Below, piece after piece: positions 10,684 to 43,893 of a stretch of 44,329 nucleotides of DNA. The stretch is from an uncultured Oscillospiraceae bacterium (GTDB taxonomy: Bacteria; Bacillota; Clostridia; Oscillospirales; Oscillospiraceae), in assembly GCA_949948775.1 (NCBI GenBank), contig CATLHC010000015.1, positions 1 to 44,329 of the forward strand. The letters are read 5' to 3'. The first letter of the stretch is position 1, and each line of letters begins with the position of its first letter. The notes beneath the pieces are model-generated. The model was given only the letters and a program-made list of their open reading frames with translations. It ran no database searches and was not told the DNA's origin. Both the position numbers and the translations under genes were made by a program.

Positions 10684-10698
10684 GTGACGGCCCCCTTC

Positions 10699-11454: not shown

Positions 11455-11466
11455 GGGCGCCTCCCG

Positions 11467-11916: not shown

Positions 11917-11917
11917 C

Positions 11918-13201: not shown

Positions 13202-13212
13202 AGACTCCCTCC

Positions 13213-29486: not shown

Positions 29487-30635
29487 TCAGCGGCGGTCAG
29501 GGACGACCTCCAGCCAGCGCTGCTCCTGTGCGGAGCGCGCAATTGCCTCACAGACCTCCATCTCCCGGCGTCCGTCCTGGAAGGTGGCAAAGGCGCCTGC
29601 CTCGCCGGTTTGAATCGCCCGGTAAAACGCGCCGAAACTTTGGACGAACGCGTCCGGAAAGCCCTCCACATGGCCGCCGGGGTACCGGCACAGAGCGGCG
29701 GAGCCGGAGCAGAGCAGAGCGGGATCCTTCACGATGGTGTGGTTGTAGGCGGTGCGCTCCCCCATCCAGAGCTCGTTGAGGGACTCGCTGTCCCAGTGCA
29801 GCGCCCGCTGGGAGCCGGCCACCGAGAGAATCATCTGGTTTTTGCGCCCCGCGTAGGCCTGGGAGACGATCATGCTGCCCTTTGCGCCGCTGCTCATCTG
29901 GAACAAGACCTGAGCGTAGTCCTCCGTATCTACGGGGAACTCCTCATACTGCCCGGCCTGGACGCGCTTGTTCTCAAACGAAGCGACCTGTTGGACGGGG
30001 CGTTTCCTCGTCTGGTGGAAGGTGGCGAAGTCGGCCAGCACACGGGTGATCCGCTGGCCGGTGACGAATTCCACCGCGTCGATCCAATGGGAGCCGATGT
30101 CCGCCACGGCGCGGGTGGATCCGGTGCAGGCGCGCTCTAGCCGCCAGCTATAGTCGGTGTCCAGCAGGAGCCAGTCTTGGAAGTAGCCGCCATGGACGGA
30201 GAAAATTCTCCCCAGGTCTCCGCGCTGAATGAGTTCCTTCATCTCGCGCACCATGGGATAGAAGCGGCAGTGGAGGTTTACGCCGTGGACAAGCCCGGAG
30301 GCTTCCGCCAGCCGGACCAGCTCATCGGCCTCCTCCTGGGTGTAGGACAGGGGCTTTTCGCACAGAACGTGGATGCCGTGCTCCAGGGCATATTTGGCGA
30401 TGGGAAAGTGGGTGACGTTCGGGGTGCAGATATGGACCGCGTCAGGCCGCTCTTGATCCAACATCTCTTCATAGCTGGCATAGGCCTTGGGAACGTGCAG
30501 CTGCTGGGCCAGCGCCGCGCTGTTTCTGCTGTCGCACAGCGCCGTGACGTCTACATAGCCCAATCTGCGCAGCGCTTCGATGTGGGCCGCGCCGATGAAG
30601 CCTACGCCGACGACGCAGGTTCGGATTTGACTCAT
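29487..30635 (-). CDS. Gfo/Idh/MocA-family NAD(P)-dependent oxidoreductase
   Basis: A 382-residue sugar/polyol dehydrogenase-like enzyme. The N-terminal Rossmann motif is TCVVGVGFIGAAHIEAL; PDAVHICTPNVTHFPIA and the catalytic-Lys motif HVLCEKPLSYTQEEADEL follow. The C-terminal alpha/beta domain contains HCRFYPMV, GGYFQDWLLL, DIGSHWIDAVEFVTG (substrate-side Asp/His pair D-x-x-x-H-W) and SQAYAGRKNQM. Such enzymes oxidise or reduce a ring hydroxyl of sugars, inositols or glycosides, often giving 3-keto sugars. ATG 30635 has AAAGGAG 8 bases upstream; the ATG at 30641 is too close. It follows lacI by 53 bp on the same strand and is thus under the repressor's own promoter. Confidence 0.9.
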   Translation of the reverse strand: MSQIRTCVVGVGFIGAAHIEALRRLGYVDVTALCDSRNSAALAQQLHVPKAYASYEEMLDQERPDAVHICTPNVTHFPIAKYALEHGIHVLCEKPLSYTQEEADELVRLAEASGLVHGVNLHCRFYPMVREMKELIQRGDLGRIFSVHGGYFQDWLLLDTDYSWRLERACTGSTRAVADIGSHWIDAVEFVTGQRITRVLADFATFHQTRKRPVQQVASFENKRVQAGQYEEFPVDTEDYAQVLFQMSSGAKGSMIVSQAYAGRKNQMILSVAGSQRALHWDSESLNELWMGERTAYNHTIVKDPALLCSGSAALCRYPGGHVEGFPDAFVQSFGAFYRAIQTGEAGAFATFQDGRREMEVCEAIARSAQEQRWLEVVPDRR

Positions 30636-30688
30636 TTGCATAACTCCTTTTCTGGGGGCGCCGCGCGGACACGCGCAGGCGCACGGGT

Positions 30689-31687
30689 TTATCCTCCCAG
30701 GCAGGGATGGGAGGAGCCGCGTATGACAAGCTCGTGGGGAAGGATCAGCCGCCTGTTGGGGGCGTGGATGTCCTGGATTTTTTCCAGCAGCAGCTGTACG
30801 CTCTGCTGCCCCAGCTCATATTTTGGCTGGTTGACCGTGGAAATGCCGTTGAAAAAATATTCGCTCTCCTGCACGTTGTCGAAGCCCATCACCGACACCT
30901 GCTTGTCCAGCCCGTGGTCCATCAGATAACGCACCGCGCCGATGGCCATGGAGTCGGCCGAGCAGAAGATGGCCGAGGGGGGATCTTTGCGGGTCATCAG
31001 CTTTTTGGCCGCGCTGTATCCGCCCTTGAAATTGTAGTCCGCCCGGACGATTTGAGTGGGGTCATAGGTGAGCCCCGCCTGCTCTAAGGCCATGCGGTAA
31101 CCGTTTTCACGGTCGATGGAGAGGCTTCGGTAGTAGTAGCCGTTTACCATGCTGATCCGCCTGTGGCCCAGGGAGATCAGATGCTCGGTGGCCTCCTTGG
31201 CGGCGGCCACGTTGTCGATGGTGACGCAGGATAAATCGGCTCCCTCCACAATGTCGGACAGCAGCGAGACCGGATAGGACCCGGCCAAACGGTTCAAATC
31301 AAATTTGTCCAAAATAGTGTTGGTCAGCACCATGCCGTCCACCTGACAGGAGCGGAGCATGGAAATGTAGCTCTCCTCCACCTCCGCCTTTTTATTGGTG
31401 ACGCCCACCACAATTTGATACCCCGCGGCCATGGCCGCGTCTCCGGCGCCCCGCAAGACGTCGGAGAAAAATGTGTTGTCCAGTGTGGGCAGCAGCATCA
31501 AAATCTTCATGGACGCGGAGGAACGGAGGTTGCGGCCGATGAAATTCGGGTGGTAGTCGGTGGAGCGGATGACCTCCTCCACGCGGCGGCGGGTCTCCTC
31601 GGAGACCTTGGGGCTTTGATTGATGACGCGCGATACCGTGGCGACGGAGTATCCTGTCAACGCGGCGATGTCTTTGATTGATACCAT
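30689..31687 (-). CDS. LacI-family transcriptional repressor
   Basis: A 332-residue regulator. The DNA-binding head reads MVSIKDIAALTGYSVATVSRV and INQSPKVSEETRRRVEEVI, with the minor-groove hinge at about 45-60. The periplasmic-binding-like effector domain contains ILMLLPTLDNTFFSDVLRG, VDGMVLTNT, TIDNVAAAKEATEHLISLGH, AIFCSADSMAIGAVRYL and VMGFDNVQESEYFFNGIST. ATG 31687 has AGGTGA upstream. Palindromes of LacI type lie at its own start of transcription and in the leader of the divergent operon, so it probably represses both directions until a sugar-like inducer binds. Confidence 0.93.
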   Translation of the reverse strand: MVSIKDIAALTGYSVATVSRVINQSPKVSEETRRRVEEVIRSTDYHPNFIGRNLRSSASMKILMLLPTLDNTFFSDVLRGAGDAAMAAGYQIVVGVTNKKAEVEESYISMLRSCQVDGMVLTNTILDKFDLNRLAGSYPVSLLSDIVEGADLSCVTIDNVAAAKEATEHLISLGHRRISMVNGYYYRSLSIDRENGYRMALEQAGLTYDPTQIVRADYNFKGGYSAAKKLMTRKDPPSAIFCSADSMAIGAVRYLMDHGLDKQVSVMGFDNVQESEYFFNGISTVNQPKYELGQQSVQLLLEKIQDIHAPNRRLILPHELVIRGSSHPCLGG

Positions 31688-31712
31688 GTTATCACCTGTT
31701 CTGCAGCTTAGA

Positions 31713-31727
31713 TGTAAAACGTTTACA
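31713..31727. promoter_or_regulatory. LacI-type operator at the lacI promoter
   Basis: TGTAAA-ACG-TTTACA, overlapping the predicted transcription start of the leftward lacI transcript. It is one base longer at the centre than the second site at 31887. Confidence 0.75.
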
Positions 31728-31732
31728 CACGG

Positions 31733-31761
31733 ATTATACGCTTTGCGGCAGGAAAAAGCAA
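31733..31761 (-). promoter_or_regulatory. Sigma-A promoter of lacI and the Gfo/Idh gene
   Basis: On the minus strand: TTGCTT, a 17-bp spacer and consensus TATAAT. Confidence 0.75.
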
Positions 31762-31841
31762 TAAGATTCGCCAAAAAAATTTGAAATTTTGGTTGATCAT
31801 CCCAGCTGGGAAAAATTTCTGAGAATTTTTCGACAAAACTA

Positions 31842-31870
31842 TTGATTTTTTTCTCCAGGTATTGTATAAT
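31842..31870 (+). promoter_or_regulatory. Sigma-A promoter of the isomerase/ABC/Mo-enzyme operon
   Basis: TTGATT (31842-31847), a 17-bp spacer and consensus TATAAT (31865-31870). The start near 31877 is 10 bases before the LacI-type operator. Confidence 0.8.
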
Positions 31871-31886
31871 TTCGCTCAAGCAAGGA

Positions 31887-31900
31887 TGTAAACGTTTACA
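31887..31900. promoter_or_regulatory. LacI-type operator in the leader of the rightward operon
   Basis: A perfect 14-bp palindrome, TGTAAACGTTTACA, between the promoter and the AGGAGG ribosome site of the first gene. It is the classic CG-centred LacI-family half-site arrangement and a roadblock position for repression. The sequence is also close to catabolite-control (CcpA cre) sites, so CcpA input cannot be excluded. Confidence 0.82.
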
Positions 31901-31918
31901 ATTTAGGAGGTGCCAAAC

Positions 31919-32836
31919 ATGCTGCAACTTGGTCTCGTCAGCGCGATCCTGCCCGGCTACACCTTTCACCAGATCATCGACCTAGCCGCAGAAAAAGGGC
32001 TGTCCTGTGTGGAGATGATGTGCTGGCCCAGGGGAAAGGCGCTGCGCCGCTACGCGGGAGTGACCCACATTGATGTGAACGATCTGCCGGAGGGCGGGGA
32101 GGAGGCGCTGCTCGCCTACGCTGCGGGCAAGGGGGTATCGATCTCCGCCCTGGGCTATTATCCGAACCCGCTGGACAGAGATCTGGAAAAACGGGAACAC
32201 TATATCGCGCACATTTACCGCCTGATCGATACCGCCCAGAGGATGGGCATCAATCTGGTCAGCACGTTCATCGGCCGGGATCTGGGCAAAACGCCTGAGG
32301 AAAACATCGAGGAGATGGTGCGCGTGTGGACGCCCATCGTTCAATACGCCCACGAGAGGGGGGTGCGGATCGCCATTGAAAACTGCCCCATGTACTACAC
32401 CCGGGACGAGTGGCCTGGGGGGACCAATCTCGCCTGCTCACCCCACGTGTGGCGCACGATGTTTGAGCGGATTCCCTATGACAACCTGGGACTGAATTAT
32501 GATCCGTCCCACATGCTGCTCCAGGGCGCGGACTACATTCGGCCGATCTATGAGTTCAAGGACCGCATCTTCCACGCCCACATCAAGGACATCAAAATGT
32601 ATCCGGACAAGATTTACGAATACGGGATGTTCTGGTACCCCTCGCAGTTCCACTCCCCCAAAACGCCGGGCCTGGGCGACATCGACTGGGGCCGGTTCCT
32701 GTCCGCGCTGTACGACATCCGCTTCGAGGGCGGCGTGTGCATTGAGATCGAGGACAAGGCCTTTGAAAGCTGCGAGGCGGACATACTGCGCTCCATTGAC
32801 ATCGGCGTAACCCACATCCGCCAATTCTGTGTGTAA
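31919..32836 (+). CDS. Sugar phosphate isomerase/epimerase-like TIM-barrel protein
   Basis: A 305-residue xylose-isomerase-like TIM barrel (AP endonuclease family 2 fold). It starts MLQLGLVSAILPGYTFHQI. The metal-binding pattern is visible: the Glu in RIAIENCPM, Asp/His in GLNYDPSHMLL, the HAHIKDIKM His pair, and the final Glu in GVCIEIEDKAFE. Enzymes of this fold isomerise or epimerise keto sugars, cleave inosose-type rings or eliminate 3-keto glycosides; the reaction here is not known. ATG 31919 follows AGGAGG; a GTG at 31910 falls inside the ribosome site. It is the first gene of the LacI-regulated rightward operon and pairs naturally with the divergent Gfo/Idh enzyme. Confidence 0.88.
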   Translation: MLQLGLVSAILPGYTFHQIIDLAAEKGLSCVEMMCWPRGKALRRYAGVTHIDVNDLPEGGEEALLAYAAGKGVSISALGYYPNPLDRDLEKREHYIAHIYRLIDTAQRMGINLVSTFIGRDLGKTPEENIEEMVRVWTPIVQYAHERGVRIAIENCPMYYTRDEWPGGTNLACSPHVWRTMFERIPYDNLGLNYDPSHMLLQGADYIRPIYEFKDRIFHAHIKDIKMYPDKIYEYGMFWYPSQFHSPKTPGLGDIDWGRFLSALYDIRFEGGVCIEIEDKAFESCEADILRSIDIGVTHIRQFCV

Positions 32837-32924
32837 GCGAGGTCTCAGCCCCGCCGTGTTTTTCCGTCATGACCCATCAAGGCTTGGTAAGAATGATACC
32901 TATCGGACATTAAGGAGGAAAATG

Positions 32925-34067
32925 ATGAAAAACAAATTGCAAAAGATGCTTGCTCTTGTCCTCGCGCTGGCCATGACCCTTGCCATGGCGGGCTGCGCGT
33001 CCAACGACGGCCCGCAGACCGGCACGCAGTCCCCGGACCGCAGCCAGGCGCCCAGCAGCGCCCCCTCCGACAGCGGCGAGCCGGCCAGCGGTGAGCCGGC
33101 CAAGCGCGGGCTGGTGGTGGCGTCCCACAATCCGTCGGTGGATTCCACCTTCCGCGCCCTCTATGAGGAGAGCCTGAGCGCCGCGGTGGCCCAGTACAAA
33201 GAGGACGGCGTCATCTCTGAGTACTACTCCTACTGTTCCAACGGCGATACCGCGACGCAGTCCCAGCAGATCCAGCAGTGCATCAACGATGGCGTGGACA
33301 TCATCATCGTCAACCCCATCTCCGGCACGGGCATCGACGCGGAGATTGAAAAGGCGCTGGACGCGGGCATCACCATCATCTGCGCCGACTGCGTCTATGA
33401 GTCGGACAAGGTCATCAGCATCGTGAACGACCAGTACAGCTGGGCGGCGCAGCAGGCCCAGTTCATGGTGGACACCCTGGGCGCCGGGGCCAAGGTGGTC
33501 ATGTTCAACGGTAAGGAGGGCAACTCCGCCTCCCAGCTCCGGGAGAGCGCCTACCGCAAGGTGCTGGAGGAGGGCGGAATTGAGATCGTCTACGAGGGCT
33601 ATAACGACTGGAACGACGCCACCTCTTACCAGAAGATGAGCGAGGTGATCTCCAGCGGCATTGAGTATGACGGCATCCTCAGCCAGATTGCCATCAACGG
33701 CATCCTCAATGCCCTGGAGGACAACAACGTGCCCTATCCCAAGGCCATTTCCGGCGATATCGCCGCGGGCGCCATCCGCCGCCTTTGCCAGATCAACAAG
33801 GATGGGAACGATCTGCCTTTCTTCTGCGTGGCCAATTCCCCCGGCATCGGCGTGACCGCGCTGTCCGTAGCCATCAACATGGCCATGGGCAACGAGCTGG
33901 ACGAGAGTGTTTTGGACGCGGACGGCAACATCTCCGTCACCCCCTTCTGGACCATCACCAACGCGGACATGGACGAGAAGCTGAAGGATCTGGAGGGCAT
34001 GGAGGACACCTCGATGGTCTCCGCTTGGATGAACGTGGAGGAGGCAAAAGAGGCTTTCTTCCGGTGA
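32925..34067 (+). CDS. ABC sugar importer, substrate-binding lipoprotein
   Basis: A 380-residue RbsB-like binding protein. A signal peptide with lipobox LAMAGC (Cys at about residue 23) is followed by a Ser/Pro/Gly-rich linker to about residue 60, then two Rossmann-like lobes: VVASHNPSVDSTFRALYEE, IIIVNPISGTGIDAEIEKAL, GITIICADCVYES, VVMFNGKEGNSASQLRE and YDGILSQIAINGIL. Family 1 periplasmic binding proteins carry pentoses, hexoses, autoinducer-2 or purine nucleosides. Of two adjacent ATGs the second (32925) has the better spacing to AGGAGG. It is 88 bp after the isomerase gene and 84 bp before the ATPase gene. Confidence 0.92.
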   Translation: MKNKLQKMLALVLALAMTLAMAGCASNDGPQTGTQSPDRSQAPSSAPSDSGEPASGEPAKRGLVVASHNPSVDSTFRALYEESLSAAVAQYKEDGVISEYYSYCSNGDTATQSQQIQQCINDGVDIIIVNPISGTGIDAEIEKALDAGITIICADCVYESDKVISIVNDQYSWAAQQAQFMVDTLGAGAKVVMFNGKEGNSASQLRESAYRKVLEEGGIEIVYEGYNDWNDATSYQKMSEVISSGIEYDGILSQIAINGILNALEDNNVPYPKAISGDIAAGAIRRLCQINKDGNDLPFFCVANSPGIGVTALSVAINMAMGNELDESVLDADGNISVTPFWTITNADMDEKLKDLEGMEDTSMVSAWMNVEEAKEAFFR

Positions 34068-34151
34068 CCGGCCGTAACCCTATGTGCCGCGCGGCCCTGC
34101 TTTGGCCGGACCGCGCGGCACGCCGCTATCTGTGGAAGGGAGGGATGCCCG

Positions 34152-35666
34152 GTGTTTGAAATGCGGAGCATCGTCAAGCATTTTGGCAGCGTGAAAGCGC
34201 TGAACGGAGCCTGCCTGAGCGTGAAGCCGGGAGAGATTCGCGCTCTGCTGGGCTCAAACGGCTCTGGAAAATCGACCATTGTAAAGATCATGGGGGGCAT
34301 TGTCCGCGCCAACGCGGGAGAACTGCTGATGGACGGCGTGCCGATTCGGATTGAGTCCGCTGCGGATTCCCGGTCCTTCGGCTTTGCGGTGGCCTATCAG
34401 GAGCTGAGCCTCCTGCCCCAGATGAGCGTGATCGACAATATCATGCTGGGGCATGAATACACCCGCCGGGGCGGCCTTCTGGACGAAAAACGCAGGCGCG
34501 AGTCGGTGAGAGGGCTGCTGGAGCGCCTCGAAATCAAATGCAGTCCGGACGCGCTGGTGCAGAATATCTCCCCCTCCGAGCAGAGCATGGTGGAGGTGGC
34601 CAAGGCCCTGTCCAGAGAACCGAAATTTCTGCTCTTGGACGAGGTGACCGCCTCGCTGCACCACGATGAGGTGGAGTCCCTCTTCCGCGTTCTGCGGGAG
34701 GAAAAGGCGAAGGGGGTCAGCATACTCATCGTCACCCACCGGATGAACGAGATCTATCAGGTGTGCGACAGCGCCACCATCTTCCGAAACGGCGCCACTG
34801 CGGCGGAAGGGCCCATGTCCCGGTTCCCCTTAAACGAGGTGATCTACCACATGACGGGCACCCGGGTGAAGGAGGAGGCCGCCGCCGCGCCCCGGAGTAC
34901 GGCGAAGGGACAGGACGCGCTGCTGCGGGTGGAGCACTTGACGATGAAGCCCAAGGTATCCGACATCTCCCTGCATGTGGACAAGGGGGAGATTGTGGGC
35001 ATCGGCGGCTTGGAGGGCCAGGGTCAGGCGGAATATATGAAGGCGATCTTCGGCGACCTGACGCCGGATGCCGGGGAGATGTGGTTTGAGGGGCGGCAGC
35101 TCCGTCTGAAGGACACCTCGCAGGCCGTCAAGCGCGGTATCTCCTACATCTCAGGGGACCGGACCAAGGAATCCGTATTTTCTCTGCGGACCATTGAGGA
35201 AAATCTCACCGCGGGCGACGCGGCGTTGGGCGGGGTATGGAGCTGGGTTTCCGCCAAAAAGATTCGCAAAATGGCCGGCGACGCGGTGGAACGGTATCAG
35301 ATCAAGATCGGCGCCATCACAGACAGCGCCAGCTCTCTGTCCGGCGGAAACCAGCAGAAGCTGGCCATTGCCCGGGGAATCGCGGTGGGACCGAAGCTGC
35401 TGCTGCTCAACGATCCCACCAAGGGTGTGGACATCAACTCCCGCAATGAGATTCACAAAATTCTGCGGGACAGCAGCGCCGAGGGCATGGGTGTGCTGCT
35501 GGTATCCAGCGACACCGAGGAGCTGCTGGGTATCTGCAGCCGGATTTATGTCTTCTATGAGGGAAGGGTGGTCGCCGAGCTGAGCGGAGACCAGCGCACC
35601 GAGGAAAACATTGTGCGCGCCATGATCGGCGGGGCGCCGGAGGGAAGGGAGGAGGCCGGAACATGA
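34152..35666 (+). CDS. ABC sugar importer, double ATP-binding subunit (RbsA-like)
   Basis: A 504-residue ATPase with two nucleotide-binding domains. The first has Walker A GSNGSGKST (about 35-43), Q-loop VAYQELSLLP, a degenerate signature ISPSEQSMVEVAKAL, Walker B LLLDEVTASL and switch THRMNEI. The second (from about 255) lacks a true Walker A (GGLEGQGQAEYMKAIFG), as usual for RbsA/MglA, but has LSGGNQQKLAIARGI and LLLLNDPTKGVD, where D-E is replaced by N-D. GTG 34152 is the start, with GGGAGGG upstream. Its stop overlaps the permease start as ATGA, so ATPase and permease are coupled. Confidence 0.93.
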   Translation: MFEMRSIVKHFGSVKALNGACLSVKPGEIRALLGSNGSGKSTIVKIMGGIVRANAGELLMDGVPIRIESAADSRSFGFAVAYQELSLLPQMSVIDNIMLGHEYTRRGGLLDEKRRRESVRGLLERLEIKCSPDALVQNISPSEQSMVEVAKALSREPKFLLLDEVTASLHHDEVESLFRVLREEKAKGVSILIVTHRMNEIYQVCDSATIFRNGATAAEGPMSRFPLNEVIYHMTGTRVKEEAAAAPRSTAKGQDALLRVEHLTMKPKVSDISLHVDKGEIVGIGGLEGQGQAEYMKAIFGDLTPDAGEMWFEGRQLRLKDTSQAVKRGISYISGDRTKESVFSLRTIEENLTAGDAALGGVWSWVSAKKIRKMAGDAVERYQIKIGAITDSASSLSGGNQQKLAIARGIAVGPKLLLLNDPTKGVDINSRNEIHKILRDSSAEGMGVLLVSSDTEELLGICSRIYVFYEGRVVAELSGDQRTEENIVRAMIGGAPEGREEAGT

Positions 35667-36706
35667 AGCGCTTGCTCTATCGGTTGAAGACAGCCCCCTA
35701 TTTTACCGGGCTCATCCTGTTTTTGACGATTCTGGCGCTGAACGTGGTGATCCAGACGCCGGCGCGGTTTTTCTCCGCCGCGAACATCAACTCGCTGGTG
35801 GCCAAAAACCTGCCGCTCATCCTCATCACAATGTCCCAAGGCCTGCTGATGATGAGCGGTGTCATCGATTTCTCCGTGGGTGTGCAGGTCTCTTTGAGCA
35901 ATGTCATCGCCATTATGATCCCCCAGTCCTTGGGCCTGCCCATCTGGGTGGGCTGGCTGTGCGCGGTGGCGGGCTGCGTGGCGGTCTCCGCCTTCAACGG
36001 CTTCATCACCACCTATCTGCGCATACCGGTGCTGCTGTCCTGCTATTCCATGGTTTTTGTGGTGAAGGGGCTGAACGTGCTCATTATGCCCAAGCCTCAG
36101 GGCAGCGTGCCTCCGGTCATTTATAAAACCTATGACTCGGTGCTGCTGGGCTTTCTGCCCTTTTCCGCGCTGATTTTGGCGGCGGTTCTGCTGTTCTGGC
36201 TCTACCTCAAGCGCACCGCTTTTGCCAAGGCGCTCTATGCCACCGGCGGGAATCTGCGCCACGCCTATTCCTCCGGCATCAACACCTCCGCCGTGCGCAT
36301 GAAGGTCTATCTGATCGCCGGCGTCATCAACGGCATCGCCGGGCTGTGCATGACGGCCATGACGGCCTCCGGGGACCCCAACGCCGGAGAGGTCTACGGG
36401 CTGAAGACCGTGGCCGCCTGTATTCTGGGCGGTATCTCCATGAGCGGGGGCTGGGGGACGCTGTCCTGCGCGCTGTACGGCGCGCTGCTGCTCATCTTGA
36501 CCCAGAACGGCGTGTCCAATCTGTTCAATTTCTTGAGCCGGGCGATCCCGGGCTTCTCTGTCACCAATTACTGGCAGAATTTTGCCTCCGATCTGATCAT
36601 CCTTCTGGCGCTGATTCTGACCGTCTTTACCAACAAGGCGATGATGGGGTCCATCAAAAAACAAGCGGACTATCTGGCATTGGGGGGTAAGAGGAATGAA
36701 GCATAA
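35663..36706 (+). CDS. ABC sugar importer, permease (RbsC-like) 1
   Basis: A 347-residue inner-membrane permease with about ten helices. Family marks are NINSLVAKNLPLILITMSQGL, LMMSGVIDFSVGVQVSLS, the ATPase-contacting KALYATGGNLRHAYSSGIN loop and CILGGISMSGGWGTLSCALYG. It overlaps the ATPase gene by 4 bp and the second permease gene by 11 bp, so this importer uses a heterodimeric membrane pore. Confidence 0.93.
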   Translation: MKRLLYRLKTAPYFTGLILFLTILALNVVIQTPARFFSAANINSLVAKNLPLILITMSQGLLMMSGVIDFSVGVQVSLSNVIAIMIPQSLGLPIWVGWLCAVAGCVAVSAFNGFITTYLRIPVLLSCYSMVFVVKGLNVLIMPKPQGSVPPVIYKTYDSVLLGFLPFSALILAAVLLFWLYLKRTAFAKALYATGGNLRHAYSSGINTSAVRMKVYLIAGVINGIAGLCMTAMTASGDPNAGEVYGLKTVAACILGGISMSGGWGTLSCALYGALLLILTQNGVSNLFNFLSRAIPGFSVTNYWQNFASDLIILLALILTVFTNKAMMGSIKKQADYLALGGKRNEA

Positions 36707-37670
36707 AAACTTTGCCGGCTCGCTTCAGCGCTTTGTGCAGGGCCATGTGGTGTTTATGGCCTTTCTCATGGCCCTGGCGGTGTTCTGCGTCAATATCATT
36801 CTCAACCCCAGGTCCCTGAATCGAAACGCTTTCGGTTCCATCCTGGCGCTGACCTCCCTGCTGGCCCTGTCCGGCGCGGGGCAGACCATGGTGGTGATCA
36901 CCGGCTCGGGCATCGATCTGTCCGCCGGGTCCATTATGTCGCTCACCGCTATCCTCAGCGTACAGCTCATGAACGGAGCGAATCAGCATATCGGCCTGTG
37001 CATTGTCATCAGCGTCGCTCTGGGCGCGCTGCTGGGCCTGTGCAACGGGATCGGCGTCACAAAAATCAAGCTGCCCTCCATGATCATCACGTATGCCATG
37101 TCCAATGTGATCACGCGGCTGCAGTTTATCGTCACGGAGGGGAAACCCACAGGCTCCGCCGCGCCTGCGCTGAGCGCCGCGCTGTCCTACCGGGTGCTGG
37201 GCCTGTTCCCGGCCATCCTGTTTTACTGTGTCGTGCTGTCGGTGCTGCTGTTTGTGCTTCTGCGGCACATGAAATACGGAAAGCGGCTCTATTTGCTGGG
37301 GGACAGCCACTCCGTGGCCCATTATACCGGAATTGCCAACGACCGCATGGTGCTGCTGACCTATGTGCTGGCGGGTATCCTCTACGGCGTGGCGGGTCTG
37401 ATCGGCGCGGGGTACTTCGCCTATGTGACCTGCGGGATGCTGGATGTGTACACCATGCGCAGCATTGTGGCCGTGGTCATTGGCGGCGCCGTGCTCACGG
37501 GGGGCAAGGGCACCTATTTCGGTACCATTGCCGGCGCGCTGTTTATGGTGGTGCTGAGCAACTGCCTGGCGGTGCTCAGTGTGCGGGACTGCGTGCAGAA
37601 TATCATCATGGGCCTGGTGATCATTGGGGTGCTCACCCTGTACAACCGGGATAAGAGCGTGCGCCAGTAA
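36696..37670 (+). CDS. ABC sugar importer, permease (RbsC-like) 2
   Basis: A 324-residue permease of the same family: LTSLLALSGAGQTMVVITGSGIDLSAGSIM (seen as GAGQTMVVITGSGIDLS), GRRLYL-like GKRLYLLGDSHSVAHYTGI coupling loop and VVIGGAVLTGGKGTYFGTIAGAL. It overlaps the preceding permease by 11 bp. It ends 32 bp before the molybdoenzyme gene, without a terminator in between, so importer and redox enzyme share one transcript. Confidence 0.93.
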   Translation: MKHKNFAGSLQRFVQGHVVFMAFLMALAVFCVNIILNPRSLNRNAFGSILALTSLLALSGAGQTMVVITGSGIDLSAGSIMSLTAILSVQLMNGANQHIGLCIVISVALGALLGLCNGIGVTKIKLPSMIITYAMSNVITRLQFIVTEGKPTGSAAPALSAALSYRVLGLFPAILFYCVVLSVLLFVLLRHMKYGKRLYLLGDSHSVAHYTGIANDRMVLLTYVLAGILYGVAGLIGAGYFAYVTCGMLDVYTMRSIVAVVIGGAVLTGGKGTYFGTIAGALFMVVLSNCLAVLSVRDCVQNIIMGLVIIGVLTLYNRDKSVRQ

Positions 37671-37702
37671 AACACAATTTGGGTCGAGATGGGGGGATCA
37701 GT

Positions 37703-39835
37703 ATGACCAGTAAAGTGCCTCAGGCGGGAAACGGAATTGAAATTGCCCACACCACCTGCGACATCTGCTCGCCGCAGCACCACTGCGGCATGAACGCCTA
37801 TGTGCGCGGCGGCAGGGTGATCAAGGTGGAGGGCTGGGCGGAGCACCCGTACAGCCGGGGGAGCATCTGTACCAAGGGCGCGGCGTACCGGGACTATCTG
37901 TACCGGGAGGACCGCATTCTGCATCCGCTGAAGCGGGTCGGGCCGAGGGGCAGCGGCCGGTTCCAGGAGATCTCCTGGGAGGAGGCCATCGAGACCGTAG
38001 CCCATCGGCTGAATCGGATCAAGCGAGAGTATGCGGCGGACGAGGTCATGTTCATGAACGGCTACGGGAAGTGGCAGAAGACCTTTTTGAACCGCCTGGC
38101 CTACTCTTTTGGCTCCCCCAATCTGGTGGGGGACGGCTGCACCTGCCAGACGGCCACCCACCTGGCCTGGGACGCCAATGTGGGGACGCTGTCCTGGCCG
38201 GATACGGACCACGCGCAGGTGCTGCTGGGGTGGGGGCTTAACCCGTACTACTCCAATTCGCCCAACGTGCCCTACTTCCTGCGGCGCAAGGCGGAGGGCA
38301 TGAAGATCGTGATCATTGACACCCGGAGGACTGCGGCCGCCGACCAGCTGGCGGACCTGTTTTTGCAGGTGCGTCCGGGTACGGACGGCGCGCTGGCGCT
38401 GGGCATGACCAATTTAATCCTGGAGCGGCACTGGGAAGACCGGGACTACTTGGACAAGCACACGGTGGGATTTGAGGAATACGCCGCGTATGTCAAGCAG
38501 TTCGACCTGCGCAGGGTCAGTGAGATCACCGGCGTGCCGGAGGAGCTGATTGTGGAGGCCACGCGGCTGTACGCCACAGCGGACTGCGCCGCCATTTCCG
38601 AGACGGCGGGCACGCTGACCCAGAAATATAACGGCTTTCAGACCTACCGGGCCATCAACTGCCTGCAGGCGGTGACGGGGAATTACGATCGGAAGGGGGG
38701 ATGCCTGCCCATCTTCTATACGTACAATCACCGCTATGCGGGATACCGCACCCATGAGCACGAGTTCATGCTTTCCCGCTACCCCCATGGAAGCCGCAAG
38801 ATCGGCAACGAGCGTTTCCCGCTGTGGAATACCTACAATGAGGCCCAGGCCAATGAACTGCCGGACTATATCAGCGGAAAAAAGGACTTCCCCATCCGGG
38901 CCATTTTCGGCATGGGGATGAACTACCGAATGTTCCCCCGGCCCGAGGCGGTCCGCAGGGCAATCGTGGAAAAGCTGGACTTTTTTGCCCTGAGCGAGCT
39001 GTTTTTGACCGACACCGCAAAGCTGGCCGATATCGTTCTGCCCGCCTGCTCCAGCTTCGAGCGGGAGGAGTTCCGCTGCTATCCCAACGGGTACGGCTAT
39101 TATACCGCGCCTGTGGTGGAGCCGCTGGGGGAGTCCAAGTCCGATTTGGATATTTTGGCGCTCTTGGCGCCGTTGCTGGACATGGATGATCCGCTGCTCC
39201 AGCGCGGCACGCCCAGGGACTGGGTAAATTATATCATCCAGGACACCGGCTGGACGGTGGAGGAGCTGCAAAAACAGGGCAAGCCCGTGGTGATGCACAA
39301 TTATGAACCCTATGTTCCCGGCACCTATACAGCGCAGGGATATCACACGCCCAGCGGGAAGTTTGAGATCGCCTCCGGCCTGGTCAAGCGGTTCTCCCAG
39401 GGAAAGAATTACAGCCTGATCCCAACCTGGGAGCCGCCGGAGGCCGGGGCCAGGCCGGAGGAGTATCCGCTGAACCTAATTTCGGGCGTGCGGTTTCCCA
39501 CGGCGCTGAATTCCCGCCTGCACCACGTGGCGGCGTTGCGGGATTTCCGCCCCGAGCCTTTGGTGGAGCTGCACCCGGAGACCGCCGAAAAGCTGGGAAT
39601 CCGGGACGGCATGCAGGCGGCCATCGAAAACGAGCTGGGCCGGGTGGTCATGCGGGTAAAGTGCACCGCGCGTGTGTCTCCGGGAGATGTCTACGCGTTC
39701 CATGGCTATGAGGAGGCGGATGTGAACGACCTGTTCAGCAGCGAGGCTCTGGACCCATATACGGGGTTCCCCGCCTTCCGCCTGACCCACTGCCGGGTGA
39801 CGCCGGCGAACAGAGAGGAAGCTGCTCATGGATGA
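37703..39835 (+). CDS. Molybdopterin (bis-MGD, Mo/W) oxidoreductase, catalytic subunit
   Basis: A 710-residue DMSO-reductase-superfamily enzyme. The N-terminal [4Fe-4S] motif is Cys19-x2-Cys22-x5-Cys28 ... Cys56 (CDICSPQHHCG, GSICTKG); the x5 spacing is wider than the common x3. LVGDGCTCQTATHLAW follows, where Cys148 aligns with the metal ligand of Cys-ligated members. Cofactor segments are LLGWGLNPYYSNSP, VIIDTRRTAAADQLADLFLQ, VRPGTDGALALGM, ETAGTLTQKYNG, a GMGMNYRMFP stretch and a C-terminal ten-stranded domain (LHPETAEKLGIRDGM). There is no Tat signal, so it should be cytoplasmic. ATG 37703 has GGGGGG-rich spacing upstream. The substrate is unknown; the sugar-uptake context is unusual for this family. 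Confidence 0.92.
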   Translation: MTSKVPQAGNGIEIAHTTCDICSPQHHCGMNAYVRGGRVIKVEGWAEHPYSRGSICTKGAAYRDYLYREDRILHPLKRVGPRGSGRFQEISWEEAIETVAHRLNRIKREYAADEVMFMNGYGKWQKTFLNRLAYSFGSPNLVGDGCTCQTATHLAWDANVGTLSWPDTDHAQVLLGWGLNPYYSNSPNVPYFLRRKAEGMKIVIIDTRRTAAADQLADLFLQVRPGTDGALALGMTNLILERHWEDRDYLDKHTVGFEEYAAYVKQFDLRRVSEITGVPEELIVEATRLYATADCAAISETAGTLTQKYNGFQTYRAINCLQAVTGNYDRKGGCLPIFYTYNHRYAGYRTHEHEFMLSRYPHGSRKIGNERFPLWNTYNEAQANELPDYISGKKDFPIRAIFGMGMNYRMFPRPEAVRRAIVEKLDFFALSELFLTDTAKLADIVLPACSSFEREEFRCYPNGYGYYTAPVVEPLGESKSDLDILALLAPLLDMDDPLLQRGTPRDWVNYIIQDTGWTVEELQKQGKPVVMHNYEPYVPGTYTAQGYHTPSGKFEIASGLVKRFSQGKNYSLIPTWEPPEAGARPEEYPLNLISGVRFPTALNSRLHHVAALRDFRPEPLVELHPETAEKLGIRDGMQAAIENELGRVVMRVKCTARVSPGDVYAFHGYEEADVNDLFSSEALDPYTGFPAFRLTHCRVTPANREEAAHG

Positions 39836-40277
39836 TATGGTTCTTTATGACGCCCAGGCATGCAGCGTATGTCAGGCGTGTTCGGTGGCGTGCATTGATG
39901 AAAAGGATCTGCCCCGCGGGGACGGGCGCGTCTGCGCCTACCGCACGGTGACGGAGGAGGAGACGCGCACACCTGAAGGCGGATTCCGCTTCGTGCGGCG
40001 GATGGACGGCTGCATGCACTGCGCTCAGGCGCCGTGCATCACGGCCTGTCCCAAGGGATGCTTTGTCCGGGACCGGGAAACGGGCCTGGTGCTTTTGGAC
40101 GAGCGCGCGTGCGTCGGCTGCGGCGCCTGCGCAAAGAGCTGCCCCCACCGCGCGATCCGCTTCAACGACTGCGGGAAGGCGGAAAAGTGCGATGGATGCA
40201 TCGACCGGGTTCGGCATGGACTGCGTCCTGCCTGCGAGATGATTTGCCCGCCCGGGGCCCTCCATTTCCACCTGTAA
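39828..40277 (+). CDS. Ferredoxin-like electron-transfer subunit with four [4Fe-4S] motifs
   Basis: A 149-residue polyferredoxin partner of the molybdoenzyme. Cysteine groups are CSVCQACSVAC (12-22), CMHCAQAPCITACPKGC, CVGCGACAKSCP and the late CDGC...C...C-P group, enough for four cubane clusters in the DmsB/NrfC arrangement. There is no transmembrane helix or signal. The start overlaps the catalytic-subunit gene by 8 bp, so a 1:1 complex is likely. No membrane-anchor subunit follows, so electrons must come from or go to a soluble carrier such as ferredoxin or NADH enzymes. Confidence 0.93.
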   Translation: MDDMVLYDAQACSVCQACSVACIDEKDLPRGDGRVCAYRTVTEEETRTPEGGFRFVRRMDGCMHCAQAPCITACPKGCFVRDRETGLVLLDERACVGCGACAKSCPHRAIRFNDCGKAEKCDGCIDRVRHGLRPACEMICPPGALHFHL

Positions 40278-40355: not shown

Positions 40356-40391
40356 CAAAGTCCCCGGAGGAGCAAACCTCCGGGGACTTTG
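40356..40391. terminator. Terminator between the Mo-enzyme operon and the secreted-protein gene
   Basis: A perfect 15-bp stem (40356-40370 with 40377-40391, loop AGCAAA) between two converging genes. T-tracts are short on both strands. Confidence 0.7.
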
Positions 40392-40400
40392 TGTGGAATA

Positions 40401-41666
40401 TTACTCGCCGTCTTTCTCGCCAAAAAACTCGTCCAGAACGTCGTCCGAATTCATGACGAGGTCGTCGTCTTTTCCGGTGAGGGTGGTCAGCTCGGGCATG
40501 ACCATATCCGCGTAGGCGGCAAAGCCGGTCAGGTACTCCCGGGCCAGGCCCACGGTCAGCAGTGCCTCGGCGTCAAAGCCGTCCATGGGCACGATCCCGG
40601 CGGACGCCGCCCAGGTGATCGCGGGGGCAAACTCGTGGTCATCGTCCACGGCCGCGGGCAGGCCGCGGTCATCCAGAGGCTCGGGTTCGCCGTCCAGCAC
40701 CCACATCTTGTAGATGAATTCAGCGCAGGAGACCGGACCCTCCGCCAGCGGCACGTCGGGGTCGGCGATTTCCACCTCGGTGTCTCCCCCGTCATACTCG
40801 GTGTCTCCCCCGCCATTGTCCCCGGTGGTGGGATTGGCCCACTTCAGACCGAGAGCGTTATCGGAGGTCACGATCCCATTCTTATCGGTGCTAACAGGAT
40901 TACCGGAGCTGTCAACCCAGGAGCCGCCTTCGGGCGTATTGATGCTGGCACCGTCATTTTCACCGCTCTCCACATAAAAGCCAGTATCGCCGTAATCAAG
41001 GTAGACATCGTCCCCGCCTTCATTGGAAACTGTGGCGCCATTCGTAAGAATGACATCCGCACCGGGCCCAGCATAGATACCACTTTCTGTATCCGCGCCG
41101 CCGATCACATCGGTGTTGTCCAGCGTCAGCTCGGCGTTCTTCCCCACGTGGATGACGCTGTTCTTTGAAGAGGTAGAATCTGTCCCCCCATCAGCGTTCT
41201 CGCCAGAGCCCTCTTGAGGCACATTGGTAATTTTGCCGCCAGTGATAGTCACATCGGGGGCAGGAGAACTGCTACCATCGGGGTCGCCGCCACCGATTTC
41301 AATGACACTGGCATCCTCTGTGCCGGTAACGGTGTTTCCGCCCAAATCCAGGTTAACATCTCTCCCGATATAAATGCTGGTATCGGAATCGGCATCTGTT
41401 TTGGAATTATAGGTGACATCCTCGTTCAGTTGGACGTGCCGGGTGTCGCCATCGTTCCAAGCGTGGATACCATAGCTGCCATCCTCATTTTTGGCATAAC
41501 CGAATTTATCATTCGTTCCGGTGATTGGCTCACCACCAGTATTTTCCGTATCATTGATGGCACTATTCAAATCCTCGAACGTAGCGTCCGCAAACGCCGG
41601 TATGACCATGCTCCCACACAGTACAAGAGACAGCAGGACAGACAATCCCTTTTTCAAGCTTTTCAT
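40401..41666 (-). CDS. Secreted acidic repeat protein with SLH-like C-terminal region
   Basis: A 421-residue exported protein. A signal peptide (MKSLKKGLSVLLSLVLCGS, then MVIPAFADA, cleavage after AFA) is followed by a strongly acidic region of beta-helix-like turns: VQLNEDVTYNS, SIYIGRDVNLDLGGNTVTG, VIEIGGGD, VTITGGKITN, VIHVGKNAELTLDNTDVIGG, VILTNGATVSN. A Gly/Asp/Thr linker (about 285-300) leads to a region with PVSCAEFIYKMWVLDGEPEP and ITWAASAGIV. These recall one or two degenerate S-layer homology modules that bind cell-wall polymers. It is probably displayed on the surface. ATG 41666 has AAAGGGG 8 bases upstream. It is divergent from a LytTR/GHKL two-component system, which could control it. 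Confidence 0.75.
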   Translation of the reverse strand: MKSLKKGLSVLLSLVLCGSMVIPAFADATFEDLNSAINDTENTGGEPITGTNDKFGYAKNEDGSYGIHAWNDGDTRHVQLNEDVTYNSKTDADSDTSIYIGRDVNLDLGGNTVTGTEDASVIEIGGGDPDGSSSPAPDVTITGGKITNVPQEGSGENADGGTDSTSSKNSVIHVGKNAELTLDNTDVIGGADTESGIYAGPGADVILTNGATVSNEGGDDVYLDYGDTGFYVESGENDGASINTPEGGSWVDSSGNPVSTDKNGIVTSDNALGLKWANPTTGDNGGGDTEYDGGDTEVEIADPDVPLAEGPVSCAEFIYKMWVLDGEPEPLDDRGLPAAVDDDHEFAPAITWAASAGIVPMDGFDAEALLTVGLAREYLTGFAAYADMVMPELTTLTGKDDDLVMNSDDVLDEFFGEKDGE

Positions 41667-41714
41667 AGGCATTACCCCTTTTCTACATAGAACATATTTT
41701 GCTTGCGCAATTGG

Positions 41715-41743
41715 AGTATATCATTTGTCCATTCCAGCTTCAA
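41715..41743 (-). promoter_or_regulatory. Sigma-A promoter of the secreted-protein gene
   Basis: On the minus strand: TTGAAG, a 17-bp spacer and TATACT, about 50 bp before the start codon. Confidence 0.65.
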
Positions 41744-41802
41744 CCAAAGTGTCCTAAATTGTGGTTTTGCGTCCCGAATCCTATGGCGGGATGGGGGCGG
41801 AT

Positions 41803-41820
41803 ATGGTATGATGATACCAT
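41803..41820. promoter_or_regulatory. Palindrome upstream of the response-regulator gene
   Basis: ATGGTAT-GATG-ATACCAT, a perfect 7-bp inverted repeat overlapping a possible TATGAT -10 box (41807-41812) and lying 28 bp before the GTG start. A candidate operator; the binding protein is unknown, and LytTR proteins normally prefer direct repeats. Confidence 0.45.
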
Positions 41821-41848
41821 CTGCGGATAGAAGAGGGGAGAGAGCACA

Positions 41849-42583
41849 GTGCGCATCGCCATTGTGGACGACAACGCCGACGACCGCCGCTGGCTGGCCC
41901 GCCGGGTGGAGCGGCTGCTGGCCCGCCGGAGCATGGAAGGGGCCGCGCACCTCTTTGAAAGCGGGGAGAGCTTTCTGGCTGCCGCCCGGCAGGAGCGGTT
42001 TGAGCTGGCGTTTCTAGATATCTACATGGACGGGCTGGACGGCGTGTCCACCGCCAAAGAGCTGCGCGCCTTTGACCGGGACTGTGTGCTGGTCTTCTCC
42101 ACTTCCTCCCGGGACCACGCGCTGGAGGGATTCCAGGTGCGGGCGGCGCAATATCTGGTCAAGCCTTATGGGGCGGAGGAGCTGGCCCGATTGGAGCGGC
42201 TTTTTGACGACCTGCTCCGGCTGCTTCCCGCGCCGGAGAAATATGTGGAGCTTCGCTCCGAACGCCGGGATATCCGGGTCAGGCTGCGGGATATCCTGTG
42301 GGCGGAGCACTTTCAGCATCAGATGCACATCCACACCGCAAAGGGCAAGGAGATATCCACCCGGCTCACCTTCCGGGAGTTTTCCGCACAGCTCACCTCC
42401 GACCCCCGGTTTTTCGTGTGCGGGCGGGGCCTGATGGTGAACTTAGACCACGCCGCCGATTTTGACGGCACCCAGTTCCTGCTGGCCGACGGGACGCGCC
42501 TGCCCGTCAGCCGGGATCTGGCCCCCGCCGCCAAGGCCGCCTTTGCCGACCGGCTATTCCGCTCAGATAGGGGGCAAGAATGA
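41849..42583 (+). CDS. LytTR-family response regulator
   Basis: A 244-residue AgrA/VirR-type regulator. The receiver domain (1-120) has the acidic pair Asp7-Asp8, phosphoacceptor Asp57 in AFLDIYMDGLDGV, STSSRDHALEGF and the Lys of YLVKPYG. The LytTR DNA-binding domain (about 130-235) contains YVELRSERRDIRVRLRDILWAE, a THRLTF-like TRLTFREFSAQL, FFVCGRGLMVNLDH and LADGTRLPVSRDL. GTG 41849 is preceded by AGGGGAGAGAG. It overlaps the kinase gene by 4 bp. The target is unknown; the divergent secreted-protein gene is the obvious candidate. Confidence 0.9.
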   Translation: MRIAIVDDNADDRRWLARRVERLLARRSMEGAAHLFESGESFLAAARQERFELAFLDIYMDGLDGVSTAKELRAFDRDCVLVFSTSSRDHALEGFQVRAAQYLVKPYGAEELARLERLFDDLLRLLPAPEKYVELRSERRDIRVRLRDILWAEHFQHQMHIHTAKGKEISTRLTFREFSAQLTSDPRFFVCGRGLMVNLDHAADFDGTQFLLADGTRLPVSRDLAPAAKAAFADRLFRSDRGQE

Positions 42584-43893
42584 TGATGATCCAGCCTATT
42601 CTGGAGTTTGCCATCCTGTTCCCCGCCGCCTTCCTCTGCTTTCTGGCCACGGCGGAGCATTTGAAGATCAGGGTGCGTACGCTGGTGCTGCTCACCGTCC
42701 CGCTCCTGACGCTGGTGTGCGTGGCGGGCGGCGCCACCTGCTGGTATATGTGGTGGCCCGTCCGCTACCTGCTCCCGCCTATGCTGATCCCGGCAGCGGT
42801 GGCCTTCTGCCGCCTGGTGGATTTACCCGCGTGGAAGTCCGTCAGCGTCTTTCTGGCGGTGTGCGCCGCCTTGTCTTGCCTCTCCCTGTCGGTCATTCTG
42901 GACGCGGTGCTGTCCCCCGCCAACACGACCCCGTGGCTGTCCCCTGTGGGCGGGCTGATCGACTTTGCCCAAGGCTGGGTGCTGGTGGCGCTGGTGTGGT
43001 ACCCCGCCACCCACGCCGCCCGCTCCCTGCTGCGGACAGAGGACGTGGAGCGCAGCTATTATGTGTTCTGGATCCTGCCCGCCGTTTTTGTCCTGGTCAA
43101 CCTGTATCTTCTCTCTCTCAGGGACACCCTGCTTCTCAATGAACAGCTTATGAGATTATATGCCCTGCTGTGCCTGGTGCTGAGCGGGCTTTTGATGCTG
43201 TTCTACCTGCTGTTCTACCTGGTGGCCCGGGAGCTGGGCCAGAATACCCGGCTTCGGCAGGAGAACCAGCTCCTCCACATACAGACCGCCCAATATGAGG
43301 TGTTACGCACCGCCATTGAGGAGACCCGCCGGGCCCGGCACGACATGCGCCACCAGTTCAACGCCCTGTCCGCGCTGGCGGACAGGGGGGCGTGGGAAGA
43401 GCTGAAGCGCTATCTGGCGGAGGTGTCGGCCAGCGTCCCCGACGCGGAGCTGGGCCTTTGTGAAAACCAGGCGGTGGACGGGGTGGCCGGGCGCTACGCC
43501 GCCCTGAGCCGCCAAAGCGGTATCCCCTTCCAGTGTCAGCTGGATCTGCCCGCTGCCTTACCCGTGCGTGAGATGGACGTGTGCGTTGTTCTGCAAAACT
43601 TGCTGGAGAACGCGCTGGAAGCCAGCCGAAACGTCCAGGGGAAACGGTATATCCACCTGAGCGCCTCCCTTCATGGAGACAGGTTGTTGCTGCTTACGGT
43701 GGAAAATCTGTACAGCGGCGAACTCGTGCAGCAAAACAACGTGCTACAGTCCACCAAGCCTGGCGGAGCGGGCATCGGGCTGCAATCCGTGGCCCATATC
43801 GCAGAGAAAAACGGGGGCTATTGCAAGTTTGTTTATGGGGATGGCGTTTTTACCGCCAACGTTATGCTGCGCGGCGGAGCTGGCCCAAATTAG
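42580..43893 (+). CDS. GHKL-family sensor histidine kinase (AgrC-like)
   Basis: A 437-residue membrane kinase. Six hydrophobic helices (residues about 5-215) form the sensor, like AgrC/ComD receptors. A coiled coil (NTRLRQENQLLHIQTAQYE) leads to the phosphoacceptor motif RARHDMRHQFNAL with His254. An N-box NLLENALEAS and a G-box GGAGIGLQSVAHIAEKNGG complete the ATPase domain. It is co-translated with the LytTR regulator through an ATGA-type overlap. No AgrD-like peptide gene or AgrB protease was found nearby, so the ligand is unknown. Confidence 0.9.
   Translation: MMMIQPILEFAILFPAAFLCFLATAEHLKIRVRTLVLLTVPLLTLVCVAGGATCWYMWWPVRYLLPPMLIPAAVAFCRLVDLPAWKSVSVFLAVCAALSCLSLSVILDAVLSPANTTPWLSPVGGLIDFAQGWVLVALVWYPATHAARSLLRTEDVERSYYVFWILPAVFVLVNLYLLSLRDTLLLNEQLMRLYALLCLVLSGLLMLFYLLFYLVARELGQNTRLRQENQLLHIQTAQYEVLRTAIEETRRARHDMRHQFNALSALADRGAWEELKRYLAEVSASVPDAELGLCENQAVDGVAGRYAALSRQSGIPFQCQLDLPAALPVREMDVCVVLQNLLENALEASRNVQGKRYIHLSASLHGDRLLLLTVENLYSGELVQQNNVLQSTKPGGAGIGLQSVAHIAEKNGGYCKFVYGDGVFTANVMLRGGAGPN

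Follow-up and report, generated by a model that had tools for sequence, protein, structure and literature searches.

An operon of an uncultured bacterium of the family Oscillospiraceae joins a complete sugar-type importer and two putative keto-sugar enzymes to a molybdenum- or tungsten-dependent (Mo/W) oxidoreductase and its iron–sulfur (FeS) partner, and the same set of genes recurs in a second genus of the family, in Pseudoflavonifractor phocaeensis An507. The operon, comprising nine genes, spans positions 29487–40277 of the 44,329-nucleotide contig CATLHC010000015.1 (assembly GCA_949948775.1; contig C15 of a genome of 2.8 Mb in 174 contigs), and this whole contig is referred to here as the window. 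As to the role of the operon, we tentatively suggest, with considerable doubt, that it may serve the catabolism of a sugar, polyol or glycoside under the control of a LacI-family regulator, by a 3-keto-sugar pathway in which the Mo/W enzyme would reductively remove a substituent next to the ketone.

Gene content of the operon

Genes were assigned by gene calls combined with Pfam and NCBIfam profile searches. The features of the operon, with the short names used below, are as follows.

29487..30635, minus strand: Gfo/Idh/MocA-family dehydrogenase (Gfo); Pfam/NCBIfam, with a 56–58% identical gene in the An507 operon
30689..31687, minus strand: LacI-family regulator; Pfam/NCBIfam and gene calls
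31714..31727, no strand: imperfect LacI-type palindrome on the lacI side; three mismatches to the 14-mer and one extra base
31842..31870, plus strand: sigma-70-like promoter, TTGATT-17-TATAAT; motif scan, 10 of 12 matches
31887..31900, no strand: perfect LacI-type palindrome TGTAAACGTTTACA, a predicted operator just past the promoter-like site; motif search
31919..32836, plus strand: AP_endonuc_2 triosephosphate isomerase (TIM)-barrel protein (TIM) of the 2-hydroxy-3-keto-glucal hydratase/IolE type; Pfam/NCBIfam and profile against structures
32922..34067, plus strand: sugar-binding protein (SBP) of the carbohydrate uptake transporter 2 (CUT2) type, Peripla_BP_4; Pfam, lipobox by eye
34152..35666, plus strand: RbsA-type double ATP-binding cassette ATPase (ABC); Pfam/NCBIfam
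35663..36706, plus strand: permease 1 (P1), BPD_transp_2; Pfam, 77% identical in An507
36696..37670, plus strand: permease 2 (P2), BPD_transp_2; Pfam
37703..39835, plus strand: bis-molybdopterin guanine dinucleotide (bis-MGD) Mo/W catalytic subunit (MO), with Cys148 as predicted metal ligand; Pfam, alignment and tree
39828..40277, plus strand: DmsB-like, ferredoxin-like 4x[4Fe-4S] electron-transfer subunit (FES); Pfam/NCBIfam and Cys pattern
40356..40391, no strand: perfect 15-bp hairpin between FES and a convergent gene; hairpin search

The gene inventory proposed in an earlier note, made from the DNA letters alone, was borne out by the gene calls and profile searches, including the strands: lacI and Gfo are transcribed leftward, and TIM, a full importer, MO and FES rightward. 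The importer is a complete one of the CUT2 (RbsABC) type, its Peripla_BP_4, double ABC ATPase and BPD_transp_2 components all scoring above the Pfam cut-offs. A 426-aa open reading frame (ORF) at lacI has an over-extended start, the gene being taken as 30689–31687, and MO has an alternative TTG start at 37679. The overlaps and short gaps described in the note hold for ABC/P1 (4 bp), P1/P2 (11 bp) and MO/FES (8 bp), and P2 and MO lie 32 bp apart, but the TIM–SBP and SBP–ABC gaps amount to 85 and 84 bp, so the junctions are not all tight. No membrane anchor subunit was found among the operon's proteins with Pfam, and no signal peptide is apparent by eye at the N-terminus of MO.

Recurrence in a second genus

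A scan of a species-genome collection with MO, which detects close relatives only, yielded one close relative, a 70% identical protein of An507 (locus L033), besides a 44% match (L034) and one at chance level (L035). Locus L033 lies wholly inside another locus, L037, and the two thus represent one contig, which is C266 of genome G271. The family of P. phocaeensis is Oscillospiraceae, class Clostridia, and G271 belongs to the family of the window but to a different genus. The eight structural genes of the window are all present there on a single strand, in the order SBP-ABC-P1-P2-TIM-MO-FES-Gfo, with MO immediately preceded by TIM and FES immediately followed by Gfo, whereas in the window TIM leads the rightward genes and Gfo is divergent. 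The encoded proteins are 56–58% (Gfo), 64% (TIM), 68–77% (SBP, depending on the method), 64% (ABC), 77% (P1), 68–70% (P2), 70% (MO) and 63–64% (FES) identical to those of the window, and the LacI proteins only 29–31%. The An507 contig stops 218 bp after Gfo, and further genes may follow. As a yardstick, a sugar-kinase-like gene (named by eye) at 23950–24855 of the window is 65% identical in G271, beside which the identities of the operon look ordinary; it is a weak yardstick, as it was not found in two genomes of the window's own genus.

The occurrence of the same gene set, in another order, in a second genus makes a link by chance between the importer, the keto-sugar genes and the Mo enzyme unlikely, and the set is therefore a real one, beyond chance. 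The earlier note had proposed to look for conservation of the isomerase–importer–Mo enzyme–ferredoxin order; the genes recur at 56–77% identity, in a different order. The operon is rare. Besides the window and An507, no MO above 49% identity was found in 42 genomes of the window's genus (own genome included), 20 of the genus of G271, or 300 of the family, 394 of the order and 391 of the class, these sets overlapping. Within the window's own genus no other genome has an MO above 46% identity, and the operon is there sporadic, rather than present without MO. A search with P1 among 199 relatives of G271 gave G271 itself (77%) and two others, at 46% and 40%.

The Mo/W enzyme forms a clade of its own

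MO belongs to the DMSO reductase (bis-MGD) superfamily, with scores of 45.5 bits for Molybdop_Fe4S4, 132.3 for Molybdopterin and 73.3 for Molydop_binding against cut-offs of 22.7, 24 and 26.8. Compared with solved structures, its profile matches acetylene hydratase best (332 bits), followed by FdhF of hydrogen-dependent CO2 reductase (HDCR; 304.8), an F420 formate dehydrogenase (304.5) and PsrA (290.5); none of the NCBIfam families listed for three MO proteins reached its cut-off. Proteins of the superfamily supply Ser, Cys, selenocysteine (Sec) or Asp as a ligand of the metal. Judged from the alignment, Cys148 falls in the ligand column of acetylene hydratase and FdhF, and Cys occupies this column in 36 of 38 other MO proteins (8 of 8 in a smaller alignment), the remaining two showing S and Q, possibly through misalignment.

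Two identities for MO were considered and rejected. In formate dehydrogenases the metal site has Cys/Sec followed by His, and this His is important; MO has Cys-Gln against the Cys-His of FdhF, and scores 300.3 of the 666.25 bits needed for a formate dehydrogenase alpha subunit. Acetylene hydratase has no FeS partner, and its second cluster Cys adjoins a catalytic Asp; in MO this Asp is replaced by Ser, and the FES gene overlaps that of MO.

A tree was inferred from 41 MO rows (two of which are the same An507 protein) together with ten other rows. Gene calling in 43 loci gave 42 MO proteins, all of which except L070 (a short call) are included; L071 gave no call, and the tree predates ten loci obtained later. 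The MO rows form one clade (100/100), inside which the window and An507 proteins pair (100/100) on a long stem (0.63), with L038 as their sister. Outside this clade fall acetylene hydratase, HDCR FdhF, Escherichia coli FdhF, PsrA, DmsA, NapA, BisC, YdeP, NarG and an enzyme encoded on contig C59 of the window's own genome. The deep forks are weak (92/70), several reference branches are long, and the reference set is without catechol dehydroxylases. The earlier note had counted a firm grouping with a known respiratory reductase, combined with a lack of induction with the importer, as evidence against its proposal; MO groups with none of the reference reductases used, at deep branches of weak support.

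Relatives of MO at 33–49% identity are common, being present (own genome included) in 42 of 300 genomes of the family (E ≤1e-100), 11 of 394 of the order (1e-150) and 5 of 391 of the class (1e-100). The window's own genome encodes, besides the distant C59 enzyme, a 45% identical paralogue on contig C7. No relative was found in viral contigs, and the 1290 matching plasmid records are all below 60% identity, the best 20 of the 1290 lying at 27.6–30.1%. Sixteen columns with at least 85% uniformity among the 38 other MO proteins hold a different residue in the window and An507, shared by the two, for instance H603N and D627T (38 of 38 others uniform), R126K (37 of 38) and H307Q (36 of 38). Twelve other related pairs, taken as a control, have 0 to 13 such columns, so that the window/An507 pair is the highest of 13, not by far; the shared substitutions lend mild support to a changed substrate of MO. 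An AlphaFold2 model of MO computed from three rows (window, L033 and L034) had a mean predicted local distance difference test (pLDDT) score of 36.6 and was unusable.

The neighbours of other MO genes

Fifty-three MO matches were obtained outside the window, 40 of which were fetched as neighbourhoods (one being the An507 contig) and 13 were not; with L034 and ten later neighbourhoods added and L035 dropped, 50 MO loci are available besides the window and An507. They extend over 8–22 kb, several ending at a contig end, so that absence means absence within the stretch read, and neighbours were counted by tblastn, as the gene caller overlooked the majority of genes at certain loci (e.g. L113, L115, L168 and L169).

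The 16 Cys of FES fall into four groups of four, all kept in the An507 protein, and FES is nearest to DmsB-type subunits in NCBIfam (101.5 of 214.1 bits). A counterpart was detected in 49 of the 50 other loci (no match in L072; about 5.4 kb from MO in L039). A FAD/NAD pyridine-nucleotide oxidoreductase of about 425 aa, nearest to PadH (192.5 of 475 bits), is encoded near MO in 36 of the 50. TIM, Gfo, SBP, P1 and P2, on the other hand, found no match in any of the 50 (E 1e-10, 40% of the query), and the sugar genes thus belong to the window/An507 branch of MO. With these five genes missing from the other loci yet FES present in 49 of 50, the MO family has the look of a redox module joined to a variety of catabolic operons, with the sugar operon belonging to one branch.

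Two of these neighbourhoods deserve mention on their own account. The C7 paralogue (L036, 1–18800) stands in a run of MalY-like, amino-acid permease, FAD subunit, MO, FES and RidA-like genes, adjoined by molybdenum cofactor (Moco) synthesis genes and an ABC transporter resembling a molybdate importer (the MalY, permease, RidA and molybdate names being given by eye). In loci L068 and L069, MO-FES is accompanied by an enolase-superfamily protein related to gluconate/galactonate dehydratases and by an ABC importer of the NMT1 type (families tested on L069); these loci represent another MO branch near sugar-acid chemistry.

The sugar-side enzymes

Against solved structures, the TIM profile matches 2zds ('putative DNA-binding protein'; 6.5e-20), 8ro4 (1.1e-9) and the IolE structure 3cny (3.5e-9); 8ro4 is a 2-hydroxy-3-keto-glucal hydratase, and it and IolE are matched over part of their length. 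According to the accessible part of PMC10628242, hydratases of this type belong to an oxidation–elimination–hydration–reduction pathway.

TIM relatives were found in 28 of 400 genomes of the family (1e-40; own genome and G271 included), with 49–58% identity apart from An507. Among the 27 matches outside the window and An507, 26 were fetched as neighbourhoods, and at least seven of these contain genes resembling CGDB, the beta subunit of C-glycoside-cleaving enzymes, five as separate genes (L118, L119, L121, L122 and L127) and two as fusions (L135 and L136). Each of the seven also has a Gfo-family gene, and one CGDB was confirmed by Pfam (105.7 bits). An RbsA-type ATPase is matched by tblastn (31–36%) in 12 of the 26, including two of the seven CGDB loci. 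In L119, for example, a divergent lacI is followed by a putative SBP, ABC, permease, two small genes, Gfo (48%), TIM (53%), CGDB and the alpha subunit. The earlier note had linked such a Gfo/TIM pair to keto-sugar chemistry, and relatives of both genes do stand in operons with the C-glycoside-cleaving CGDB pair. MO is present in one of the 26 loci, L132 (G269), where it is convergent and has its own FAD-type subunit gene: a run of LacI, CUT2, Gfo and TIM genes ends about 290 bp from the convergent FES-MO-FAD run.

Three identities were evaluated for the sugar side, and none was accepted. Thirteen queries for CGDB and its TIM alpha partner found nothing by tblastn (1e-3) in the window, L033 or L037, while the positive controls L118 and L119 matched; the CGDB beta and TIM alpha subunits of a DgpBC-type C-glycoside lyase system were thus not found in the operon, and because of this a C-glycoside substrate as such is not supported. 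Three uncharacterised structures match Gfo better than any named enzyme; among the latter, levoglucosan-type and inositol/L-glucose dehydrogenases come nearest. Structure 6a3f we take to be levoglucosan dehydrogenase, which is also the best named NCBIfam family, with 156.4 bits against an equivalog cut-off of 650. For the inositol pathway the scores are 110.4 of 355 bits (IolG) and 35.1 of 290 (IolE), and the other operon genes do not belong to iol families in Pfam or NCBIfam.

Proposed pathway and its alternatives

From the gene families present, a keto-sugar pathway with MO-FES acting on the keto-sugar or a product of it seems to us the most economical reading. The CUT2 importer would bring the compound into the cell, for which the family assignment is a strong argument. 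Gfo, to judge from its relatives, would then oxidise a hydroxyl of the ring, that at C3 being the most likely one, with formation of an alpha-hydroxy keto-sugar and NADH. MO-FES, as a two-subunit bis-MGD reductase, might strip an oxygen substituent adjoining the new ketone by a two-electron reduction; in a 3-keto-sugar the candidate positions alpha to the ketone are C2 and C4, and the step would also dispose of electrons. An analogy is offered by the Mo-dependent 21-dehydroxylation of corticoids, in which, as described in the accessible part of PMC11574389, a hydroxyl alpha to a ketone is removed. Finally, TIM could hydrate or isomerise the keto-sugar or elimination product for central metabolism. 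The earlier note had likewise envisaged import, keto-sugar chemistry and a Mo/W step; the importer/keto-sugar/Mo-enzyme set proved real and recurs in a second genus, but the genes for C-glycoside cleavage, part of its background, were not found. A bolder proposal, which we regard as doubtful, is that MO-FES may be the first bis-MGD enzyme acting on sugars, a keto-sugar reductive dehydroxylase or alpha-deglycosylase replacing the beta-eliminase of 3-keto-glycoside pathways, and a branch of a large undescribed Mo/W clade that is frequently accompanied by a PadH-like FAD subunit and that Clostridia, in particular Oscillospiraceae, attach to many catabolic operons.

Several observations weigh against a reductive keto-sugar role. 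The full set was found in two genomes only. One TIM and one Gfo fall short of the four enzymes of the oxidation–elimination–hydration–reduction pathway, as set out in the accessible part of PMC10628242. MO could be an oxidase. The FAD/NAD subunit of about 425 aa is absent from the window and the An507 contig (tblastn). The other MO loci hold MmgE/PrpD pairs and arylmalonate-decarboxylase (AMDase)-like, MalY-like and enolase-superfamily genes, with amino-acid-permease-like genes also nearby (MalY-like and permease names by eye), and such diverse catabolic neighbours do not point to sugars in general. The earlier note held that an MO missing from the same operon in close relatives would speak against it; with no other MO above 46% in the genus, this comparison is not cleanly applicable, and a looser relative, G073, has a similar importer (36–53%) and, at a distance of some 20 kb, a Gfo/TIM pair (55% and 57%), neither of which is adjoined by MO. 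No MO was found in the 40 kb read around the importer and this pair, and a 35% MO relative lies on another contig of G073.

It is conceivable, if fairly unlikely, that MO-FES acts instead on an aglycone or side group freed from an imported glycoside (e.g. by aromatic dehydroxylation), with Gfo and TIM handling the sugar half. The closest solved relative of MO, acetylene hydratase, is also the nearest to catechol dehydroxylases (PMC7028382, accessible part), and relatives of TIM share operons with CGDB, an enzyme by which aglycones are released; however, tblastn finds the known eliminases, CGDB with its TIM partner, neither in the window nor on the An507 contig, so that no aglycone-freeing enzyme was identified there. 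Unlikely, in our estimation, is an oxidising role of MO-FES, as a dehydrogenase or hydratase-type enzyme on a sugar-derived product, feeding ferredoxin or NAD. It would agree with the closeness of the MO profile to formate dehydrogenases relative to acetylene hydratase and with the likeness of the FAD subunit of MO relatives to PadH, a phenylglyoxylate dehydrogenase subunit, but the formate dehydrogenase identity itself fails on the missing His and the score, and no other positive sign of oxidation was noted. Finally, MO-FES might reduce an S-oxide, N-oxide or sulfur group of the imported compound, or be a respiratory electron sink sharing the promoter by accident. The DmsB-type affinity of FES, the Cys of PsrA at the same ligand column and the PsrA score of 290.5 bits are in keeping with this, but the missing membrane anchor and signal peptide count against it, as does the recurrence with sugar genes in two genera against an accident, and we consider this quite improbable.

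Predicted regulatory sites and the probable operon end

The LacI palindromes that the earlier note placed at both promoters are present in part: the one on the right-hand side is perfect, but that at lacI is imperfect. Sites matching the 14-mer with up to three mismatches number four in the whole window, against 0.27 expected, two of the four lying elsewhere; no such match was found in An507. The hairpin at 40356–40391 is probably the end of the operon, and a terminator scan requiring a T run does not list it. The convergent gene beyond it (40401–41672) encodes a secreted-looking product of 423 aa with no Pfam or NCBIfam match, and is followed by a LytTR response regulator and GHKL sensor pair (40401–43893 for all three).

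Other observations in the window

At 21208–23648 (minus strand), enzyme I of a phosphotransferase system (PTS) is divided between two reading frames with a 4-base overlap within the PEP-binding domain, and PTS_IIB and EIIA_2 domains follow in the second ORF; this may be a frameshift, an assembly error or a real split. An apparent MATE transporter at 26051–26907 (minus strand) is likewise in two ORFs, with a MatE match in the first only. A second candidate catabolic cluster at 8414–15270 (minus strand) consists of aconitase X and its swivel subunit, a 685-aa NADH:flavin oxidoreductase, an M20 peptidase and a DUF5058 protein.

Comparison with known systems

To our knowledge, the bis-MGD family is known for respiration, formate chemistry and the removal of hydroxyls from catechols and corticoids, and not for sugar catabolism. 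Among the matches listed in a search of open-access papers (no preprints), no bis-MGD enzyme in a Gfo/TIM/CUT2 sugar operon was found in titles or the starts of abstracts, and no word beginning with 'molybd' appears in the main text of two C-glycoside papers. The parts of the operon are known; for their combination and for the enzyme clade no description was found. An operon of this kind, linking a Mo enzyme with keto-sugar chemistry in two genera, would give anaerobes a further way of exploiting a sugar, as carbon source and electron acceptor at once. Many genes of the wider MO clade also have neighbours from which a substrate can be guessed, which opens the chemistry to direct testing.

Inositol catabolism by IolG and IolE similarly involves a Gfo/Idh enzyme, an IolE-like TIM barrel and an importer, but the IolG and IolE scores here are far below the cut-offs. 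On the enzyme side, acetylene hydratase, with Cys alike at the ligand column, is the closest solved relative, from which MO differs by the Ser in place of Asp after the second cluster Cys, by its 4x[4Fe-4S] partner and by its own clade; catechol dehydroxylases are set beside MO by description rather than by sequence comparison, the MO clade being separate from the ten other rows of the tree. The Mo-dependent corticoid dehydroxylase of Eggerthella and Gordonibacter (PMC11574389, accessible part) resembles MO-FES in the proposed chemistry, the loss of a hydroxyl alpha to a ketone, a likeness drawn from chemistry and not from sequence comparison, whereas substrate class, phylum and operon differ. 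Finally, the 3-keto pathway operons described in the accessible part of PMC10628242 (dgp of strain PUE, the Agrobacterium OGE operon and the Bacillus smithii levoglucosan operon) likewise pair Gfo/Idh enzymes with AP_endonuc_2 TIM barrels, and the TIM profile here matches the hydratase of that pathway; the operon in the window differs from them in lacking matches to CGDB and its TIM partner, in having a single Gfo and a single TIM, and in the addition of a bis-MGD enzyme with its FeS partner.

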